A stretch of 64,000 nucleotides of DNA from Paenibacillus dokdonensis (lineage in GTDB: Bacteria > Bacillota > Bacilli > Paenibacillales > Paenibacillaceae). Position numbers and translations under genes: made by a program. The DNA lies in the NCBI RefSeq assembly GCF_004916975.1, contig NZ_STGQ01000001.1:520993-584992 (forward strand), read 5' to 3'. Shown here piece by piece: positions 4,683-62,689 of this stretch (within the stretch, counting starts at the first letter, position 1; each line of letters starts with the position of its first letter). The notes below the pieces were generated by a model, which had not been told where the DNA came from, did not search any database, and saw only the letters and a list, made by a program, of their open reading frames with translations.

Positions 4683-6881
4683 ATGAACAATCTGAAATGG
4701 ACATCCATATCCAAAAAAGCAATGACATACTCGCTGGCATTCACGCTGGCAGCTTGTCCTATGGTAGCTGGCACAGGACATGCACTGGCGGCAGATCCAT
4801 TCTCTGCTTCCCAGCAGTCTGCAGACAGCGCCGAGACGCATACGCCAATTCAATATCGGATCAATGCTCGCCTGGACGAGAAAAATATGCATATTCAGGG
4901 AAGCGAAACGGTCACGTACCGCAACACCTCGAGCGACACGCTTAGGGAGTTGGTGTTCCATACCTTTGCCGATGCTAACCGCTCTAAATCTACCCAGGCC
5001 AGCATGTTCCAGAGAACCAATGCAGAAATCCTGAAGAACAATCCCGGCCTCAAGCCGGAGGCCTTTCTTGGCGGCATTGATATCCAGGCTGTGAAGGCAG
5101 GTGGGCAATCCTTAGCATTCACTAATACCAACCAGGCGCTGACCGTTCAGCTTCTGCAGGGACTAAAGCCCGGTGAAGCGGTAACGCTCCAAGTAGAATT
5201 TGATGTAAAAATTCCATATGGCTCCGAACGATTATCCTATTATAAAGACATCATCAACGGCGCTCACTGGTTTCCGGTCATGTCCGTGTATGACGAAACC
5301 AAGCATATGTGGGATAAAACGCCTTATAGCACTTCTTTTGAAACCGACTATTACACCTCCTCGGACTTTGAGGTTCACTTTAATGTCCCCGCAGCGTATC
5401 AAGTATTGATGCCAGGGACGATCACCACACAGGAAGATAAGGAAGCCGGTCGCAAAATCGTCTCCACGGTAGCCAACAACACGCGGGAATTTGTCTTTTT
5501 CGCAAGCCCGAACTATAAAGTAGATAGCGTGACCCGAAATGGCCTGACCGTCGAATACTATTATTTTGACAGCATGCCGAACAAGAAAAAGATCGTTGAC
5601 GAATACGTGGATCAGGCCTTCAAGGCGATCGAATTCTTCAATGACAAATACGGAAAATATCCGTATCCTGAATTTCGCCTCGCTGAATCGTATGTGGAGG
5701 GATTGGCGGTGGAATTTGCCCGCGTGATTCAGATGGGCATGATCGGTAATAACGCGGATCCGGTGCATGATTCGGTATTCGTGCATGAAATCGCTCATCA
5801 ATGGTTCCATGCCCTGATCGGCAACAACTCGGAGAAGGAATCGTTTCTGGATGAAGGCTTTGCCGACTTCTCAAAAATCTATTTCTCCGAGAAACAAGGC
5901 GACATGCTGAACGGGTTCAAAGCGCTCCAGTTTGACGACACTTCCTTCGATGCGCCCATCGCTTCGACCAATCAGGAGGTTGGCGACAATGCCAGTCCTG
6001 TCTTTTATGATAAGGGCCGCCAGGCTATTTACCAGCTGTATCGGATGGTTGGCGAAGAGAAATTTGATGCTTTCATGAGAGAATATTTCAAGCGGTATGC
6101 ATTTAAAAATGCAACGATTGATGGACTCCTCCAAACCATCGGGGATACACTGGGGAAAGAAGCCCGAAATGAGATGGACAAGTCGCTGCATCAGCCGAAT
6201 TTTGTCCTGAAGCCTGAATACCGCCTGAGCAAGCAAGAAACAGCCGCCTATTTTCATGAGCAGTTCAAAGAGATATACCGTTCTTCTCTCGCACAGATCC
6301 CGGAACTTCCGTTCGAGACGATGAGCCGGATTGAGGATAAAGCGCTTCAGGGCGAACCGCTGACCATTGTACTGAGCGACCAGGTGAGTAGCAAGGCGAA
6401 AAAGCAGCAGGAGATCATTCTCAATCAGCTGAAAGGAACATTTGAGGTTGCGGGCATTAAGCCTGTCATTATTACGGAGCGTCAGGTATTGAAAAAGAAA
6501 TTGGAAAAGGAAATTGGAAGCAGTAATCTGATCGTGATCGGCAGCGCTCAAACGAATGGGCTGATCCAGGCGCTGAAGCCCGGCATCATTCAAAAATCCA
6601 AGGATATAGGTTTTGACTGGAAGAGTAGGATGAATAAAAAAGGCGCAGCGGGCGCTTATATCATCAAGCATCCGTTTAACCATAACCGTTTATTGCTCCA
6701 TTTCTATTGGAACGGGGATACCCTTGCGGACGGAACGGTTGAGCCGTTTGGGAAGCAAGTGCTGAATGCACTCAGTTTTACCACTGATTTCTATCAATAT
6801 TATGAGATGAATAAGACAGGGAAAGTAACTTCAGATCAGAAGACGGCTAACCCGATGTCCAAATTTTTCGCTGAGGAGTAA
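4683..6881 (+). CDS. secreted M1-family metallopeptidase with C-terminal extra domain
   Basis: 732-aa exported gluzincin. HEIAH at residues 368-372 and Glu391 in DEGFA give the HExxH-x18-E zinc site of M1 aminopeptidases. The usual GxMEN substrate loop is altered to EGLAVEFAR (339-347). The leader ends in LAAC (Cys25, lipobox-like) and also contains an ALA-A signal peptidase I site, so it may be a lipoprotein or secreted. The last 200 residues form an extra Rossmann-like region (LIVIGSAQTNG) not needed for M1 catalysis. The ATG at 4683 is chosen because GGGAGA precedes it. No terminator separates it from yxeA, so it may share that transcript. Peptide cleavage outside the cell is the likely role. 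Confidence 0.82.
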   Translation: MNNLKWTSISKKAMTYSLAFTLAACPMVAGTGHALAADPFSASQQSADSAETHTPIQYRINARLDEKNMHIQGSETVTYRNTSSDTLRELVFHTFADANRSKSTQASMFQRTNAEILKNNPGLKPEAFLGGIDIQAVKAGGQSLAFTNTNQALTVQLLQGLKPGEAVTLQVEFDVKIPYGSERLSYYKDIINGAHWFPVMSVYDETKHMWDKTPYSTSFETDYYTSSDFEVHFNVPAAYQVLMPGTITTQEDKEAGRKIVSTVANNTREFVFFASPNYKVDSVTRNGLTVEYYYFDSMPNKKKIVDEYVDQAFKAIEFFNDKYGKYPYPEFRLAESYVEGLAVEFARVIQMGMIGNNADPVHDSVFVHEIAHQWFHALIGNNSEKESFLDEGFADFSKIYFSEKQGDMLNGFKALQFDDTSFDAPIASTNQEVGDNASPVFYDKGRQAIYQLYRMVGEEKFDAFMREYFKRYAFKNATIDGLLQTIGDTLGKEARNEMDKSLHQPNFVLKPEYRLSKQETAAYFHEQFKEIYRSSLAQIPELPFETMSRIEDKALQGEPLTIVLSDQVSSKAKKQQEIILNQLKGTFEVAGIKPVIITERQVLKKKLEKEIGSSNLIVIGSAQTNGLIQALKPGIIQKSKDIGFDWKSRMNKKGAAGAYIIKHPFNHNRLLLHFYWNGDTLADGTVEPFGKQVLNALSFTTDFYQYYEMNKTGKVTSDQKTANPMSKFFAEE

Positions 6882-19613: not shown

Positions 19614-19648
19614 GCACCTCTCTTGCATTTTAAGAGAGGTGTTTTTTG
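19614..19648 (+). terminator. terminator hairpin in the leader of the HRDC gene
   Basis: ACCTCTCTT pairs with AAGAGAGGT, followed by GTTTTTTGTT. It lies between the promoter and the gene start, so it would truncate the transcript or define a short RNA of about 60 nt. Confidence 0.75.
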
Positions 19649-19681
19649 TTGTGCTGATTTTTAATCGTGGAGGTCATAAGA

Positions 19682-20686
19682 ATGCAGATTGTTTTTATGA
19701 ATCGTTTGGTTAAAGAAAGCGGGAGCGACGAAAGCAGGGCAGAAGTATGGATTGAAGAGGCAGAAGGTGCCTGGAAACTGGGATGGAGGGATATGCATGA
19801 CAGCGGTGGGGTTCAGGAAAGCATTTGGTATGAAGGCAGCTCGTGGAATGAAATGCTATACATTTACCGGCATGAGCTCGCCGTTAAGCTCGGCCAAGGA
19901 TTCAGGCCATTAATCGATGGCATGCTGCTTGATGAGGAGGGTCAGAAGGGGAGAAGCCAGTCCATCCAGAAGCTCTACTGCTATAGTGAACTGAACTACC
20001 AAGAGGCGCTATACAATGAGCTATGTGCCTGGAGACGCAAAAAAGCAGCGGCAGAACGAAAGGCACCCTATTTTATTGCTACCAACAGGCTTTTAAGGCT
20101 CATCAGTTCTTTTGTACCGGTGACTGTGGAGGAATTGCTGCAGCTTCCGGGTGTGGGAGAGAACAAGGCTGTGGAATATGGTGCGGATATTCTGAACTTG
20201 ACTTTAGGCCAGGAACGCAGCCATAACTTCCCGCTGGACTGGGTTCAGGACATGCTGGATGAGCATACCTATGAATCCTGGGTTTACAAGCAGAAGGAGC
20301 TGAAATACAAACAGGACCTGGATAAATACCGGACCAAGCAAATGCTGCTAAGAGGCATTAGTGAAGGCAAACGTCTGGAGCAGATGGAGCAGGAAAGCAG
20401 TCTGACAAGACGTGAGCTGGTGGAGTCGCTGGAACAGTTGGAGAAGGAAGGCTATGATGTGGACACTTTGATCGCAGGAGAACTGCAGGAGATGCCGCAG
20501 TCAGAACAGTCAGAGATCTGGAACGCCTTCGAAGAACTGGGTGATGCGCTTCTGAAGCCAATCCTGCAGCGGGTATACGGTCAGGAAACAGCGGCAGGTT
20601 CTGTGATGGAGCTGCGTTATGAACGTTTGCGTCTGATCCGGATGCGTTTCCGCAGAGAAGGCGAGAGCAGAAGAAACGCGGGATAA
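19682..20686 (+). CDS. HRDC-domain protein
   Basis: 334 aa. The middle (about residues 112-180: ALYNELCAWRRKKAAAERKAP, then LLQLPGVGENKAVEYGADIL) is an HRDC nucleic-acid-binding domain as found after RecQ helicases. There is no helicase, nuclease or membrane part. The N-terminal 100 residues and the charged C-terminal helices are not recognised. It could be a DNA-binding accessory factor. The ATG at 19682 is chosen because GGAGG precedes it. The leader contains a premature terminator. Confidence 0.75.
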   Translation: MQIVFMNRLVKESGSDESRAEVWIEEAEGAWKLGWRDMHDSGGVQESIWYEGSSWNEMLYIYRHELAVKLGQGFRPLIDGMLLDEEGQKGRSQSIQKLYCYSELNYQEALYNELCAWRRKKAAAERKAPYFIATNRLLRLISSFVPVTVEELLQLPGVGENKAVEYGADILNLTLGQERSHNFPLDWVQDMLDEHTYESWVYKQKELKYKQDLDKYRTKQMLLRGISEGKRLEQMEQESSLTRRELVESLEQLEKEGYDVDTLIAGELQEMPQSEQSEIWNAFEELGDALLKPILQRVYGQETAAGSVMELRYERLRLIRMRFRREGESRRNAG

Positions 20687-21735: not shown

Positions 21736-22192
21736 ATGATTTCACTCCTCCATCCCCTCACGCGATGCATGATCAGGGGAACGCTTGTTTAGAGCATAGG
21801 AAAGAAATCAGCATTACCGGTCAGAAATAGAGGGTTAGAGAAGGGGTACATTGACAAAAGCAACGAAAACTTCCCTATGCCGGCAAGCTGATATCAGTTC
21901 TATGCAGTTGTGTTCATTTGCATTCAGCTTCGGGCTCGGGTCGCCTTCCATCTTACATGTCACCTCTGTCATATAGGTTTAAACACTTGTCTAGTATAAC
22001 GCCGGGCCATGGACCTTTCAAGAAGAAAATGGCTCGCCCGGCGATCCCGCTTACAGCGTATGACAAAGGCTGGAAATCGGTGAAGAAAAAATAAGTTTAA
22101 GGTCAGACCGTGAGCATCTTGACGAAGGATAGGAATATGAATTAAAGTAAGGAACAAGATCAATATTTAAATCAAAATTTAATATTGCGAAA
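21736..22192. other. gene-free region between corA and the SAM riboswitch
   Basis: 457 bp without a credible gene. It holds two dyads. At 21885-21930 AAGCTGA/TCAGCTT encloses ATGCA/TGCAT. At 22000-22043 CGCCGGGC pairs with GCCCGGCG. The first lies in what would be the corA leader. A weak promoter for the met operon (TTGACG at 22119, TAAAGT at 22143) is possible. Confidence 0.5.
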
Positions 22193-22318
22193 TCTTATCA
22201 AGAGCAGGTGGAGGGACTAGCCCGATGAAACCCGGCAACCGGCGTATGTTACGCACGGTGCTAATTCTTGCAGGAACATGATGCAGCTAGCAGCTGATTC
22301 CTGACAGATGAGAGAGGC
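22193..22318 (+). ncRNA. SAM-I (S-box) riboswitch
   Basis: The core is complete: CTTATCAAGAGCAGGTGGAG, GGGACTAGCCCGATGAAACC, CGGCAACC, the CACGGTGCTAATTC joining region and the closing CTGACAGATGAGAGAG. It binds S-adenosylmethionine and switches off the met operon downstream through the adjacent terminator. Confidence 0.97.
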
Positions 22319-32075: not shown

Positions 32076-33152
32076 ATGAAAAAGCGATGGTTAGACAGGC
32101 TTTTCGGAGGCGTTGTGCTGATTGGCATCGGCATGATATTCCTTCTGAATCAGCTGGAGGTAATCGATGTCAGTCTCGGTTATGTAATCGGACATTACTG
32201 GCCGGTGATTCTCATCGTTTTGGGAATCAAGGAGCTGTTAAAGGGAAGAAAATCCTTTGTTGGTGCGATGGTGCTTTTACTCATCGGGACATATTTTCTG
32301 GGAAGAAATGAAGGCTGGGATTGGCTGACGCCAGGTAGCTTCTTCAAAATCATTATTCCGGCAATTTTGATCATGGCTGGCCTGTATGTCATATTTAAGC
32401 CGCATGATCATACGCCTCCCCCGCGTCCGAATAGGGATCATGAACCACCCGCGTTTACCCCGGAACCGCCTGAACCGGAGGATCTGACCGCAAAGTCAAC
32501 CCTGGACCAGCAGTTTGAGGAGAAATTCGGAATCCCTTATACCGAGCGGAAAGAAGCCGAGCGCAAAGGCTTCCATATTGAAGTCGATGAAGATGACGAG
32601 GATATGGAGTTCGATGATATGGATGATGATGTTAAGGATCGCTACAAGCAATATAAAAAGAAATACAAGCAGCAGAGAAAGCATCATCAGCACATGAAGC
32701 ATCAGATGCGACATGATCGGCGTCATGGCAGACCAGAGTGGGAAGAGCATGGGGAGACACATTATGATGGTGGTAAGATCAACAGATCTGCTTTTATCGG
32801 AGACATTCACTTGGGCCGTGATTACTTCGAGCTCAAACCAACCAATCTGTCGCAGTTTATCGGGGATACCGTGCTGGATCTGACGAATGCCCACATTCCC
32901 TACGGTGAAACCAAGATTAACATCTCCGCTTTTATCGGTGACATCAAGGTGTATGTTCCTGAGGATACGGATCTCGGTATTTCGGTAAATTCAAGCTCAT
33001 TTATCGGGGATATGTTCGTCCTGAATGAATCGCGGAGCGGGTTTATGAGCAGCTGTCAAATGAAGACTCCACATTATAAGGATGCCCGCAAGAAAATACG
33101 CATTAATGTCAGCGCATTTATTGGCGACATCAAAGTGAATAAAGTAGGTTGA
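32076..33152 (+). CDS. liaF: LiaF-like envelope stress regulator
   Basis: 358 aa. About four N-terminal membrane segments (residues 9-110) are followed by a charged linker rich in Asp/Glu and Lys/His (residues 170-225) and a C-terminal LiaF-type beta domain with repeated FIGD(I/T/M) motifs (SAFIGDIHLG, SQFIGDTVLD, SAFIGDIKVY, SSFIGDMFV, SAFIGDIKV). LiaF inhibits the LiaSR two-component system in the absence of cell wall stress. First gene of liaF-liaS-liaR, RBS AAAGGAGA. Confidence 0.9.
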   Translation: MKKRWLDRLFGGVVLIGIGMIFLLNQLEVIDVSLGYVIGHYWPVILIVLGIKELLKGRKSFVGAMVLLLIGTYFLGRNEGWDWLTPGSFFKIIIPAILIMAGLYVIFKPHDHTPPPRPNRDHEPPAFTPEPPEPEDLTAKSTLDQQFEEKFGIPYTERKEAERKGFHIEVDEDDEDMEFDDMDDDVKDRYKQYKKKYKQQRKHHQHMKHQMRHDRRHGRPEWEEHGETHYDGGKINRSAFIGDIHLGRDYFELKPTNLSQFIGDTVLDLTNAHIPYGETKINISAFIGDIKVYVPEDTDLGISVNSSSFIGDMFVLNESRSGFMSSCQMKTPHYKDARKKIRINVSAFIGDIKVNKVG

Positions 33153-33156
33153 TGGC

Positions 33157-34215
33157 ATGCGGAATATTTTGAAGAATACCAAATGGGTGCTGTTATTGTA
33201 TTTTCTTCTGACCGGTCTCCTGATGAGCGCGGTTCTATATATCGGGGCGGACAGTGGATATCTGGTCGTCAAAGGAACCTGGGTTTGGGTCTACACAAGC
33301 CTGGGCTTCCTGCTGTTATCTATCGTCATTGGCTACATGGCCGGCCAGCGGATTCAGCGTAGAATAGATATCCTGGAATACAATATGCTGCAGGTGGCGA
33401 AGGGCAATCTGTCCGTTCGGATTGAGGAGTCCGATGACCCGACCTTTACACGGCTGTATCATGAGTTCAATAATTTAATGGAAGCCATGGAAAAGAAAAT
33501 GATGCTGCTGCAGCGGATGGGCGAGCAGGAGGTTGTAGAGAAGGAGAAGGCAGCGGAGCGTGCAGTTCTGGAAGAACGCCGCCGCATGGCTCGTGATTTG
33601 CATGATACCGTAAGCCAGCAGCTGTTTGCCATTCATATGTCCGCCTCCTCTCTGCCTAAAGTGCTGGAGCGCAATGCTGAGCAGGGGCAAGTCGTCATGG
33701 CGCAGCTAATTTCGATGTCGCAAATGGCTCAGAAGCAAATGCGGGCCTTGATCGCGCAACTGCGGCCGGTGGAGCTAGAAGGCAAGAATCTGGCGGAAGC
33801 ACTTGAAATGTGGTTCCCGGACTACTGCCGGCAGAACGGGCTGAAGGGTATGAAGGAAGTGGAGCTGCAGGGGAATTTGTCTGAAGCGATCGAGCATCAA
33901 TTATTTTTGATTATCCAGGAGGCTATGGCCAATATTGTGAAGCATGCCCATGCACGTCTTGTCAGTATGTCGCTGCGGGAGGAGCAGAGACAGGTCGTCC
34001 TGAGCATCAGTGATGACGGACAGGGATTTAATGAAGTGCCACATAAAACGGGATCTTATGGATTGTCAACGATGCAGGAGCGTGCCGAAAAACTAGGCGG
34101 TAAAGCGGAAATCATCAGCCGTCAGGGTTCCGGAACAACGATTCGCGTACATATACCTAAGTTTGAAGAAGAAATAACCGGTAAGGTTCATAAGATGGGA
34201 GAGGAAGAGGAATAA
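33157..34215 (+). CDS. liaS: LiaS-like sensor histidine kinase
   Basis: 352-aa NarL-partner kinase. TM1 (residues 9-29) and TM2 (about 45-63) are separated by a short extracytoplasmic loop, so it probably senses within the membrane. Then come HAMP, HisKA_3 with the phospho-His in ARDLHDTVSQQLFA, and HATPase_c (NIVKHAHA, SDDGQGF, GLSTMQERAE). It lies 4 bp after liaF and abuts liaR. Detects lipid II-cycle antibiotics in relatives. Confidence 0.92.
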   Translation: MRNILKNTKWVLLLYFLLTGLLMSAVLYIGADSGYLVVKGTWVWVYTSLGFLLLSIVIGYMAGQRIQRRIDILEYNMLQVAKGNLSVRIEESDDPTFTRLYHEFNNLMEAMEKKMMLLQRMGEQEVVEKEKAAERAVLEERRRMARDLHDTVSQQLFAIHMSASSLPKVLERNAEQGQVVMAQLISMSQMAQKQMRALIAQLRPVELEGKNLAEALEMWFPDYCRQNGLKGMKEVELQGNLSEAIEHQLFLIIQEAMANIVKHAHARLVSMSLREEQRQVVLSISDDGQGFNEVPHKTGSYGLSTMQERAEKLGGKAEIISRQGSGTTIRVHIPKFEEEITGKVHKMGEEEE

Positions 34216-34874
34216 TGACAGACATCATTAAAGTGTTGATTGTGGATGATCATGAAATGGTCCGGATGGGACTTAAAACATATCTAATGCTGGAGTCGTC
34301 CATTGAAGTCGTTGGTGAAGCTGATAACGGTTCAAAGGTTGTAGACTGGCTCAAAAATGCTGCTCCTGAGCAGTTCCCTGATCTGATCCTGATGGATTTG
34401 ATGATGCCGATCATGAATGGGGTAGAAACAACCAGGGCTGTGCTTGGCGAGTTCCCATCCATGAAAATCGTTATTCTGACGAGCTTCTTAGAGGATGACT
34501 TAGTCGTGGATGCCGTGGAAGCAGGCGCTGTCAGTTATGTGCTTAAAACGGTATCGGCAGATGAGCTGATTTATGCTCTACAGGGGGCAAACCGTGGTAT
34601 GCCTGTCATGACCGGTGATGTGTCGCAGGCACTTACGCGCGGGATTCGCCAGCGTACCGTTCAAGGAGATTCCACCGGAATGACGGAGCGTGAGAAGGAA
34701 GTACTGCTGTTAATTGCTGAAGGCAAGAGCAATAAGGATATCGGAGAAGAGCTTCACATCAGCATCAAGACTGTTAAAACCCATGTGAGTAACCTGCTGA
34801 TGAAATGTGATCTGGAGGATCGGACGCAGCTTGCTATATATGCACATCGCAAAGGATGGGTGCAGACCGAGTAA
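34215..34874 (+). CDS. liaR: LiaR-like response regulator
   Basis: 219-aa NarL/LuxR-type regulator. Receiver: DDHEM at the N-terminus, phospho-acceptor Asp in LILMDLMMP, Lys in YVLKTV. C-terminal LuxR helix-turn-helix: MTEREKEVLLLIAEGKSNKDIGEEL to TVKTHVSNLLMKC. The start codon shares a base with the liaS stop, so they are coupled. The classical LiaR target liaIH is not in the window. Confidence 0.92.
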   Translation: MTDIIKVLIVDDHEMVRMGLKTYLMLESSIEVVGEADNGSKVVDWLKNAAPEQFPDLILMDLMMPIMNGVETTRAVLGEFPSMKIVILTSFLEDDLVVDAVEAGAVSYVLKTVSADELIYALQGANRGMPVMTGDVSQALTRGIRQRTVQGDSTGMTEREKEVLLLIAEGKSNKDIGEELHISIKTVKTHVSNLLMKCDLEDRTQLAIYAHRKGWVQTE

Positions 34875-34888
34875 GGTTTGATGGTGAT

Positions 34889-35042
34889 CGGTCTGTCTCC
34901 TGCGAATTACGTCAATAGGTGTTTTTCATTAGAATACAGAATTTAAAAGTTATCAGCATAGCTGATCAATTCTGTATTCGCAAGAAAACATACCACTAAA
35001 AGCGGTCTGTCTTCTGTGATTTACATCGACTTTTGTGTTTTC
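34889..35042. repeat. direct repeat pair flanking a nested hairpin
   Basis: CGGTCTGTCTCCTGCGAATT (from 34889) recurs as CGGTCTGTCTTCTGTGATTT (from 35003); over 25 bp 21 match. Between them GAATACAGAATT (34932-34943) pairs perfectly with AATTCTGTATTC (34968-34979), with ATCAGC/GCTGAT (34952-34966) nested inside. A related copy of the right-hand part is at 49487-49549. It looks like a small dispersed intergenic element; no coding capacity. Confidence 0.65.
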
Positions 35043-35154
35043 TTATCTCCTTTTTAATTGTTTTTAATCTGCTATTAAGGTTTATAGTACATGATATAAA
35101 CAGTTAAACAATTCCCACACGGAAATTGATATAAAGGTACAGGAGGCATAAAAC

Positions 35155-36792
35155 ATGGACGAAAGAAACAGATCCGGTCAGCCTGAAGATGAATTTGAAA
35201 ACGACACAATGAAGCGTCAAGATTCTTCTGAATCGGGTTCCTCATATTACTATTCCTACGGACCGTTCCAATCGCTTGGAAAAGATAATGCCGAGCAGCA
35301 TGGAGTGGAGAGTCATAATCAGGAGGATGTCGAAATCACACCTCCGAATCCGGTCCGGCCGCTCCCGACCGTAAGTCCTTATCTATCCTCCACGGATCCC
35401 GGCAATGCCGGCAGAAACGGTGGCGGAACAGGAGGAAATGGCGGCAACAGTAATTGGCAGTTCAACCAGAAGCCCAAGACATCGGTCAAAACCGTATTGA
35501 TTTCCTTTCTTGCCGGTGTAGTCGTAATATCCGCTCTGATGTTTACTTCGGACCGGATGAACCTGTTTACTCCAAATGCGGCAATGTCATCGGCAGAGCA
35601 GCCTAGTACAACAGTATCCGCCGCACCGGAAAGCAGCGGCAACGGTGGAAATACATCAACGACTTCACTTCCTCTGAGCAAGCCGACAGATGTATCCGGT
35701 GTTGTTCAGGAAGCAGGACCAGCAGTCGTTAAGATTGAAACACTCGTGAAGCAAAGCAGCCGCAGCTCCCAATCGCAAACGAATCCATTTTCGAACGATC
35801 CATTCTCTTACTTCTTCGGTGACCAATCCGGAAGCGGAAGTGACTTTGGCGATTCGCAATCAAACAGTGATTCCCAATCCCAGTCACAAAACCAATCGAA
35901 GCTGGTGCCATACGGAATTGGATCCGGATTTATCTACAATAAAGATGGCTACATCCTAACGAATGAGCATGTGGTCGAGAATGCAGATGTTATTCAGGTC
36001 ACAATCGAGAATGACAGCAAGACATACGAAGCTAAGCTTCTAGGTAAATCCAAGGATCTAGACTTGGCCGTACTGAAAATCGAAGGCAAAAATAACTTCC
36101 CAGTGGTTCCACTTGGTGATTCCAATAGCCTGAAAGTCGGTCAACCGGTGGTTGCTATCGGTAACCCTCAAGGCTTTGACCATACCGTAACCAGCGGTGT
36201 GCTGAGTGCCCGCGAACGCTCCATCGATATCAAGGAAGAAACAGGTTCCGGCACACGTAAATACCAGCATTTGCTGCAAACCGACGCATCCATTAACCCT
36301 GGTAACTCTGGTGGACCATTATTGAACATGAATGGCGAAGTCATCGGCATGAACGTTGCCGTGAGTGCGGATTCCCAAGGCATCGGCTTTGCGATCCCTA
36401 CCAGCACGATCAAGAATGTTGTTCAAAAGCTGGAAACCAATCAATCGATTCCAAAGGATCCCGTACCATTCATTGGTGCAACGTTGATGACTTTGACCGA
36501 TGAGGTTGCCAAGCAAATGGGAACTACGATTACCGAAGGTTGTGTTGTGGCAGAGGTTGTCTTCAAATCCCCGGCATATGAAGCGGATCTTCGTCCGTAT
36601 GACATCATCACCGGTGTGAACGGCACGAGCTACAAGACTAATTCGGATCTCGTATCATTTATCCAGAAGCAAAAGGTTGGTTCCAACGTCACGCTGAATG
36701 TAGTCCGTAATGGTAAAAAAATGGACCTGCAAGTTACCGTTGGCGACAAGAACAAATATAATATTCCTTCTGAAAGTACCGATCAAGAATAA
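35155..36792 (+). CDS. htrA: HtrA-family membrane serine protease
   Basis: 545 aa. A disordered acidic cytoplasmic N-terminus (1-108, Gly/Asn-rich) precedes one membrane anchor (about 109-130), a Ser/Gln-rich linker, and a trypsin-like domain with His272 (NEHVVENAD), Asp303 (LDLAVLKI) and Ser385 (GNSGGPL). A C-terminal PDZ domain follows (about 440-535, ADLRPYDIITGVNG). It degrades misfolded proteins outside the membrane. AGGAGGC lies before the ATG. A two-component system follows, as with cssRS-htrB or mprAB-pepD elsewhere; whether it regulates this gene is inferred. Confidence 0.92.
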   Translation: MDERNRSGQPEDEFENDTMKRQDSSESGSSYYYSYGPFQSLGKDNAEQHGVESHNQEDVEITPPNPVRPLPTVSPYLSSTDPGNAGRNGGGTGGNGGNSNWQFNQKPKTSVKTVLISFLAGVVVISALMFTSDRMNLFTPNAAMSSAEQPSTTVSAAPESSGNGGNTSTTSLPLSKPTDVSGVVQEAGPAVVKIETLVKQSSRSSQSQTNPFSNDPFSYFFGDQSGSGSDFGDSQSNSDSQSQSQNQSKLVPYGIGSGFIYNKDGYILTNEHVVENADVIQVTIENDSKTYEAKLLGKSKDLDLAVLKIEGKNNFPVVPLGDSNSLKVGQPVVAIGNPQGFDHTVTSGVLSARERSIDIKEETGSGTRKYQHLLQTDASINPGNSGGPLLNMNGEVIGMNVAVSADSQGIGFAIPTSTIKNVVQKLETNQSIPKDPVPFIGATLMTLTDEVAKQMGTTITEGCVVAEVVFKSPAYEADLRPYDIITGVNGTSYKTNSDLVSFIQKQKVGSNVTLNVVRNGKKMDLQVTVGDKNKYNIPSESTDQE

Positions 36793-49413: not shown

Positions 49414-49843
49414 TATCATCACCTCGGGTACAACTGGATTTTTTAAAATATCAGAACTATACACTTCTTGACCAGACATCCTGGTATCGCAAGAAAACTC
49501 CGTTAAACGCGCCCTGTCTTCTGTGGAACTTCCTAAAAGAGCCTTTTCTGCCAGTCCTCATTCTAACATTCCCCTGCTCTTTTCGCAAAAATGAATCTAA
49601 AGTCACAGAAAAGCCTAAAAAGAGATTGCACCATATGGAAGCGTTGCGATACAATCTTGTTAGATTATTTGCAGCAAAGGCATGAAAAAGCGAAACTTTA
49701 ACAAAATTTACTAAAAAACACCTCCGACACCATTTTATACACTTCATACGTCTTGAAACAAGCATTTAACGCGTTTTTCAACATAGCTGAATTATACGTT
49801 TATGTAATCATTCCACTCTATTTAGCAGGGGGTTTCAATTGAA
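49414..49843. other. divergent intergenic region
   Basis: 430 bp between divergent genes. It contains a copy (49487-49549) of the repeat seen at 34978-35042, sharing TCGCAAGAAAAC and CTGTCTTCTGTG. The rest is AT-rich promoter-like DNA. No gene is visible. Confidence 0.5.
49487..49549. repeat. dispersed repeat copy
   Basis: TCGCAAGAAAAC (49487-49498) and CTGTCTTCTGTG (from about 49513) match 34978-35020 in the same order and nearly the same spacing. Confidence 0.55.
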
Positions 49844-62260: not shown

Positions 62261-62689
62261 GTTCAGCACCTCCCCTATACGCATAATCAGCTTCAAAAGT
62301 CATGAGTCATTATTAATCAAGTATATTCACGCGCAGGGATGATATGTGATGAGGATGAAGTAAAATAACGAGTTCAATTGATTGTAATTTAATCCATATT
62401 CAGGATTTTCAAGTGAGTATTCGACTGTTTATGACAAATATTTCAAAAATGTTATAGTATACTGCAATTGTCCTAGTTACAAAGGATGAGAGATTTCGCA
62501 GTAATAGTTTCTAATACATATGTTTTGAGGGAGGTGTGCTCCAGATCATTCACGTGGGCAAGCAGTCCCGTAGGATAAGACAAGAAGAAGTGGATTGTGA
62601 GGAAGGAAGCAGCGCGGTTTATCTTCTGGGAAGTTACGTCGATAGACGTGGGCGGAGACGAAAAAATGTGATTGATAGGGAGTGTACAT
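62261..62689 (+). other. gene-free region and long leader of SLH gene
   Basis: A promoter ATGACA (62431-62436) and TATAGT (62453-62458), 16-bp spacer, would start RNA near 62465. This leaves about 225 nt of untranslated leader. It contains a GGGAGGTG site at 62530 followed by a GTG, but the frame it opens overlaps the SLH gene and lacks protein-like features. No known riboswitch class was recognised in it. Confidence 0.5.

Follow-up and report, generated by a model that had tools for sequence, protein, structure and literature searches.

A structured repeat of about 112 bp found behind transcription terminators in Paenibacillus dokdonensis and its relatives, most likely a small mobile element

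PATEs are non-autonomous derivatives of the IS200/IS605 insertion sequences, and the BOX repeats have a modular structure; terminator targeting and pairing between a guide and an element end are not known for BOX and RUP. IS200/IS605 elements carry subterminal hairpins that are recognised, their guides pair with target and right-end tetranucleotides, and insertion takes place in the lagging-strand template (PMC6006769). Group IIC introns recognise a DNA stem-loop and the single-stranded stretch that follows it, and they make use of lagging strands (PMC10190682). According to PMC3733652, GTAG/CGTC REPs are small palindromes of 20-40 bp tagged at one end, the CGTC REPs having no known dedicated transposase. 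Here we describe a repeat first noticed in a 64,000-nucleotide stretch of the P. dokdonensis genome (the window), of a kind that was not found described in the openly licensed papers searched.

The first-pass annotation of the window had reported a 25-bp repeat with 21 matches around a 12-bp perfect stem that encloses a 6-bp stem. Counting bears this out: 34889-34913 and 35003-35027 are identical at 21 of 25 positions (the direct repeat lengthens to 43 nt at a 72% match), and both the outer stem (34932-34943/34968-34979, 12 bp) and the inner stem nested within it (34952-34957/34961-34966, 6 bp) are perfect as read from the sequence. What had looked like repeats flanking a hairpin are two B modules, one from each of two element copies lying head to tail, the first of which lacks its 5′ half. 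That 5′-truncated copy, the right part of module B (34889..34929, + strand), starts 14 bases past the liaR stop codon and is the direct-repeat partner of 35003-35045; it was matched by an nhmmer half-model that does not include it (E-value = 9.4e-8) and is also present in the relative G020 (locus L209). The full-length copy follows at 34930..35044 (+ strand; cmsearch 89.7 bits over 34930-35045, the copy being part of the model), with boundaries deduced from other copies that lie in arrays or have an empty counterpart site. It comprises hairpin A (34932..34979, +), read from the sequence and with a stem that covaries among copies; an A-rich guide-like stretch, AAGAAAAC (34982..34989, +), complementary to the element right end according to guide/end complementarity in 81 copies; a conserved box without consistent pairing, GCGGTCTGTCTTCTGTGA (35002..35019, +), of which GCGGTC is best conserved in an 81-sequence alignment; and the right end with the T-run TGTTTTCTT (35036..35044, +; consensus GTTTTTCTT). 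RNA folding of 34875-35060 was moderately better than that of shuffles (z = -2.47 and -3.39 for the two strands).

The head-to-tail pair has a liaF/liaS/liaR-like operon on one side and an htrA-like gene on the other. Upstream, the liaR-like response regulator gene (34215..34874, +; Pfam Response_reg and GerE) stands after a LiaF gene and a LiaS-like kinase gene, the ORF at 32076 exceeding the LiaF NF040535 cut-off. Downstream lies an HtrA-like serine protease gene (35155..36792, +; Trypsin_2 and PDZ_2), which scores 336.7 bits against degP_htrA_DO, under the 416.2 cut-off of that model. By eye, the T-run end of the pair adjoins an htrA-upstream block found in many relatives without the element. 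This block, TTATCTCC..TTTTTAATTGTTTTTAATCTG..TTAAGGTTTATAGTACATGATA (window 35040-35110), is repeated 5′ of the htrA-like gene across many Paenibacillus relatives (by eye) and is possibly a conserved promoter or operator. Among the 30 loci read for the window site, copies occur in P. dokdonensis and G020, and a broken form was made out by eye in G014; in G005 the two flanks are adjacent.

Elsewhere in the window, a partial right-hand copy had been proposed at 49487. Both of its 12-mers are there, TCGCAAGAAAAC followed by CTGTCTTCTGTG, in the same order (49487-49525), but the copy is a full one whose decayed hairpin A begins at 49445 (49445..49550, +; cmsearch 70.6 bits, the copy being part of the model). 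Taken singly, the 12-mers are not rare at two mismatches (5 occurrences vs. 4.04 expected and 10 vs. 7.52 expected). The covariance model finds the two full places at E-values of 8.8e-20 and 4.2e-15; since both are among its 15 building sequences, independent support for the window element comes from the genome-wide family. A remnant of the right-hand part of module B lies at 62611..62650 (+; nhmmer half-model E-value = 8.9e-8, outside the model; cmsearch 16.5 bits). The window also holds a SAM riboswitch (RF00162) at 22192-22314 (+, 79.3 bits).

The element is about 112 bp long (98-126 bp among 81 representatives). Its plan, from 5′ to 3′, is hairpin A, the A-rich guide AAGAAAAAC, a conserved GCGGTCTG..CTTCT box, a hairpin with a GATA loop and the T-run end GTTTTTCTT, which is complementary to the guide. 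Written as a consensus, it reads two bases (AA, TA, AC or AT in 75 of the 81 representatives), hairpin A, CGC, AAGAAAAAC, a variable stretch, GCGGTCTGTCTTCTGNGA, CGTC-GATA-GACG and TTTTTCTT. Hairpin A and the guide/right-end pairing covary, and the structure is under constraint. In 15 P. dokdonensis copies, standard pairs fill 87.5% of cells, compared with 79.8% after shuffling and 44-50% after sliding, and none of 500 shuffles reached as good a covariation score. Hairpin A has 33 different left arms among the 81 representatives, which pair better with their own right regions than with those of other copies (6.95 vs. 4.70 when shuffled, 0/2000), and the guide is more complementary to its own right end than to shuffled ones (7.25 vs. 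6.60, 0/2000, 81 copies), kinship among copies inflating these shuffle tests. Double changes of guide and end were read as AACAA/TTGTT (L079, L083), AAAACC/GGTTTT (L368, L382) and ATGAAAAA/TTTTTCAT (L376). The right hairpin keeps its GATA loop on arms that include CGTC/GACG, CTTC/GAAG, CCTC/GAGG and CTCC/GGAG. The CGATA motif occurs in 55 copies, of which 41 form every pair of this hairpin, and is missing from 26 of the 81. Apparent compensatory changes were also seen by eye between the window-site orthologues of P. dokdonensis and G020. A CCGC/GCGG hairpin in module B was considered and rejected by eye, as its 5′ side varies without compensation. A TATAAT-like promoter sequence was noticed by eye at the right end of the element.

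Folding as single-stranded DNA permits two pairings of the guide, one with a T-run, enclosing hairpin A (z = -3.56, composite letters), and one around module B (z = -3.66). A piece in which a real terminator precedes hairpin A folds no better than its shuffles (z = -0.85), and the guide/T-run pairing is not in its best structure. In the window and six further loci scanned, no Rfam family matched the element at its gathering score, and other matches fell far below theirs.

The idea of a dispersed element proved right: rather than these few copies without conserved structure, there is a genome-wide family, with many copies across P. dokdonensis and the genus. BLAST with window 34960-35050 returned 26 places in the P. 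dokdonensis genome at E ≤ 10, the upper ones being clear relatives with different flanks. A covariance model (R1) of 15 aligned copies, all from P. dokdonensis and including both full window copies, gave at least 41 matches in that genome at E < 1e-3 (150 of 1579 candidates scored). At E ≤ 1e-6 it matched at least 37 of 80 genomes, P. dokdonensis included (47 candidates scored per genome), and the element-bearing ones fall in 6 of 21 genera. All copy numbers are lower bounds, as best-candidate subsets were scored (e.g., 40 of 287 in G014 and 150 per genome elsewhere). An exact degenerate pattern occurred in 94 stretches of named genomes, and all 80 of the titled matches listed were from Paenibacillus. 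The species distribution is patchy. In three other families of the order (G064, G066, and G079) the plan is kept and the sequence differs (50 matches at E ≤ 1e-4, 30 read). Within G079, and within G066 (an assembly that is 94% complete and holds two subtypes), the copies appear almost identical to one another, and spread there therefore looks recent. No match to phages was found and IMG/VR held no exact pattern; for plasmid carriage, the one find was the 897-kb replicon of P. cellulositrophicus, with 14 places.

The element most likely inserts in one orientation, immediately 3′ of a terminator T-run. Left flanks of 60 nt were available for 138 deduplicated copies, 33 of which come after another copy. 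Among the 105 lone or first copies, 60 have a strong terminator at the left end (a hairpin of -10 kcal/mol or lower with a T-rich tail abutting the element). The same feature turned up at 5/314 random positions, in 2/103 right flanks taken as reverse complement and at 35/300 positions matched for a T-run, element copies being left unmasked in this last control. The Fisher p-values are 1.5e-37, 1.1e-20 and 2.4e-19, respectively, and are overstated, as orthologous sites and related genomes make the copies non-independent. A strong terminator is missing from the other 45, and no obvious host terminator abuts either full copy of the window. A junction profile was drawn from 65 of the 105 copies, selected because they end in TTTCTT and no copy follows; here the junction has the form T-run/A, with T at -6 to -1 in 71-94% and A at +1 in 92%.

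Sites empty in relatives, which had been proposed as a check, were found. For 12 of 14 sites (the last in part), the joined flanks served as queries against 100 genomes of the genus, and four sites could be aligned filled vs. empty: P. dokdonensis C3:429524, empty in G118 (93% identity); a P. solani site, empty in G093; a P. cellulositrophicus site, empty in G005 and G113; and P. dokdonensis C1:224797, empty in G020, G087, G095 and others, with G118 showing there a 106-base gap whose size fits one copy. Target-site duplications, likewise proposed as a check, are not visible at any of the four, where a T-run could mask a short one, and at two of them the junctions are off by a few bases. Being dispersed, structured and absent from such sites in related species, the repeat is most likely mobile, in keeping with the small non-autonomous element suggested at first. 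A decayed copy behind a T-run lies shortly 5′ of an ORF that by eye resembles translation elongation factor Ts (L062, P. dokdonensis C1:1375982); at the matching site in L078 the gap is 36 bases vs. 74 in L062.

With respect to replication, 38 of 40 clusters that BLAST with one copy found in G014 run co-directionally (40 of 287 candidates scored); sampled ORFs do so in 209 of 303 cases and predicted terminators in 167 of 288. In 400 kb sampled at even spacing from that genome, decayed copies included, the count was 13 of 17, and two of the four exceptions are carried within another repeat. On P. dokdonensis contig C1 the count is 18 of 19 (from 20 places at E ≤ 4.0e-5), or 19 of 23 when four weaker places are added, vs. 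135 of 172 sampled ORFs. G010 lies slightly above its ORFs (34/42 vs. 172/229) and G045 shows no excess (29/43 vs. 192/258); ORF counts for these baselines come from a longest-ORF heuristic. The strand bias is thus not general and may mark recent copies or G014 alone, and it backs a single-strand model only in part.

Copy number can vary at a site: one locus holds a single copy in P. rhizosphaerae, about 1.5 in P. cellulositrophicus and, in strain XY044, three; the flanks agree at 93-98%. At C2:1172669-1172999 of P. dokdonensis (L025), the first two of three tandem copies are near-identical and far from other copies, which suggests local amplification. Longer parent elements in G014 were considered and, by eye, proved to be other repeats. 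One is a ~290-bp unit with GTTCAAAAAG ends that holds one element copy (L356 at ~3791 and L363 at ~12529, 91% over 291 columns) and may ferry the element. The other, of ~110 bp and beginning TAAAATAACCCC, is an insertion that splits element copies (L353 at ~4690-4800 and L361 at ~19640-19750) and occurs elsewhere in G014 as well.

We explain these data by a non-autonomous element mobilised in trans on single-stranded DNA, with IS200/IS605-like behaviour, that inserts behind terminator T-runs, and we give this reading a probability of about 0.5. The strand bearing terminator and element would be used as single-stranded DNA, as in a lagging-strand template. The A-rich guide would pair with the target T-run or, alternatively, with the element's own right-end T-run, the two pairings marking both cut or junction points, and an enzyme encoded elsewhere would join the left end behind the target T-run. 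Since the element's own right end resembles a terminator, with hairpin and T-run, each insertion may offer a fresh target, which would yield head-to-tail arrays. A weak terminator may be added on both strands as a side effect. Against this explanation are the many copy-bearing genomes without Y1_Tnp (see below), a strand bias that is not general, the 45 lone or first copies without a strong terminator, the position of the guide, 3′ of hairpin A where IS200/IS605 has it 5′, and the 5′-truncated copies at T-runs, which are unexpected from precise end cleavage.

The two enzyme families tested do not fit easily. Of 17 genomes with copies, 11 have no Y1_Tnp (PF01797), G066 included, and of 13 without copies, 10 have it; RVT_1 (PF00078) is absent from 6 of 17 copy-bearing genomes (six of the 17 deemed copy-bearing from a ~105-base gap between flank hits; G093 left out), among them G005, G045 and G061, each with at least 45 matches, and G066. 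Only one of 60 Y1/RT loci has element copies at E < 0.01. These data speak against either the Y1 or the reverse transcriptase family as the explanation of the movement, at least as present-day residents; the test covered these two families. A linked autonomous partner was also sought by clustering the ORFs within 2.5 kb of copies, and no transposase-like cluster was seen by eye among the 40 largest (at least three loci each). We tentatively consider a new class of element that would address terminators through its A-rich guide and spread without Y1 or RT, through either a single-strand mobiliser of undescribed type or replication template switching that needs no transposase.

An RNA-mediated spread seems unlikely. 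Here a transcript ended by the element's own terminator would be inserted behind terminator hairpins by a group IIC-like reverse transcriptase supplied in trans, with the A-rich stretch in the role of an EBS1 that pairs with the T-run, so that the element would be a bacterial analogue of SINEs. The use by group IIC introns of a DNA stem-loop with the downstream single strand, and of lagging strands, speaks for it (PMC10190682), as do 5′-truncated copies joined to terminator T-runs (L164, L086, L420, L010, and L004; 5 of 26 5′-short copies, by eye) and the ratio of 26 5′-short to 6 3′-short copies among the loci examined. This excess is biased, however, since conservation lies in the 3′ half, and we rejected it as proof of reverse transcription, module B being easier to detect. 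Some 3′-short hits were antisense hairpin hits inside full copies, and some 5′-short copies are decayed or broken by another repeat. The six copy-bearing genomes without RVT_1 and the lack of a group II intron match in the window or in the six loci with better copies also count against this route.

Two further mechanisms are less probable still, and about equally so. In the first, no dedicated enzyme is needed: a lagging strand stalled at a terminator hairpin would let its nascent A-run re-anneal at a T-run flanking the element, copy it and switch back, so that anything bounded by T-runs beside hairpins would spread. The T-rich left flank in most of the 65 profiled copies (the T-run right end is in all of them by selection), the orientation of BLAST-found copies in G014, the local near-identical arrays, and the lack of a linked Y1/RT gene, with both families missing from several copy-bearing genomes, are in its favour. 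Yet the unpaired GCGGTC.. box is kept in most of the 81 copies, which suggests a recognised motif, 40 clusters in G014 are many for ectopic template switching, and the species distribution is patchy. In the second, a circular form would be integrated by a site-specific or bridge-RNA-type recombinase (e.g., IS110-like) with the common T-run as crossover core; a T-rich target, a T-run right end and no visible target duplication agree with this, and arrays would arise if copies integrated at the junction of an element already in place, but the strand bias of BLAST-found copies in G014 is left unexplained. Finally, an immobile host regulatory RNA or bidirectional terminator kept for its function is very improbable, since in spite of the compensatory changes that conserve structure, apparently at the window site too (by eye), related species have empty sites, the copies are scattered with a patchy distribution, and array number varies at one site.

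Terminator tails are safe and common landing sites between genes. An element that targets terminators and has a terminator-like end could remodel transcript ends at dozens of loci and grow arrays, and the pairing of guide and target, if true, would be a natural case of oriented, terminator-addressed DNA insertion. The element also raises the question of what moves small non-coding repeats in genomes without the usual enzymes.

Compared with described systems, the element is similar in description to BOX and RUP of Streptococcus pneumoniae (PMC3049150), short non-coding repeats dispersed in a Firmicute chromosome. With the GTAG/CGTC REPs it has in common that it is a small palindromic repeat, and the CGTC REPs are likewise without a known dedicated transposase. 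It is unlike them in being ~112 bp and two-part, with ends AAGA../..TTTTTCTT, and unlike REP/REPIN in having no GTAG/CGTC tag (first two bases AA/TA/AC/AT in 75 of 81) and no linked RAYT gene (copies at 1/60 Y1/RT loci). Its ends share only AAGA inverted (by eye) and no duplication was seen at four sites, in contrast to a DDE MITE. With the IS200/IS605 family and its non-autonomous derivatives (REP/REPIN, PATE) it shares subterminal hairpins, no visible target duplication, insertion in one orientation 3′ of a target of constant type, an internal sequence that pairs with a right-end sequence like a cleavage site, and, in part of the data, a strand bias. The targets are T-rich throughout and the right-end pairing of the guide covaries. 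It differs in that 11 of the 17 genomes with copies have no Y1 transposase, the target is a terminator tail, and there is one guide, between the two hairpins, with none 5′ of hairpin A. Like group IIC introns, it has a stem-loop and T-rich single strand as target, a complementary A-rich stretch and no visible duplication; unlike them, it is 112 bp long, matches no Rfam intron and occurs in six genomes without reverse transcriptase. By analogy, the element may work like a meeting of IS200/IS605 and group IIC, with a terminator as address, an A-rich guide and a terminator-like right end.
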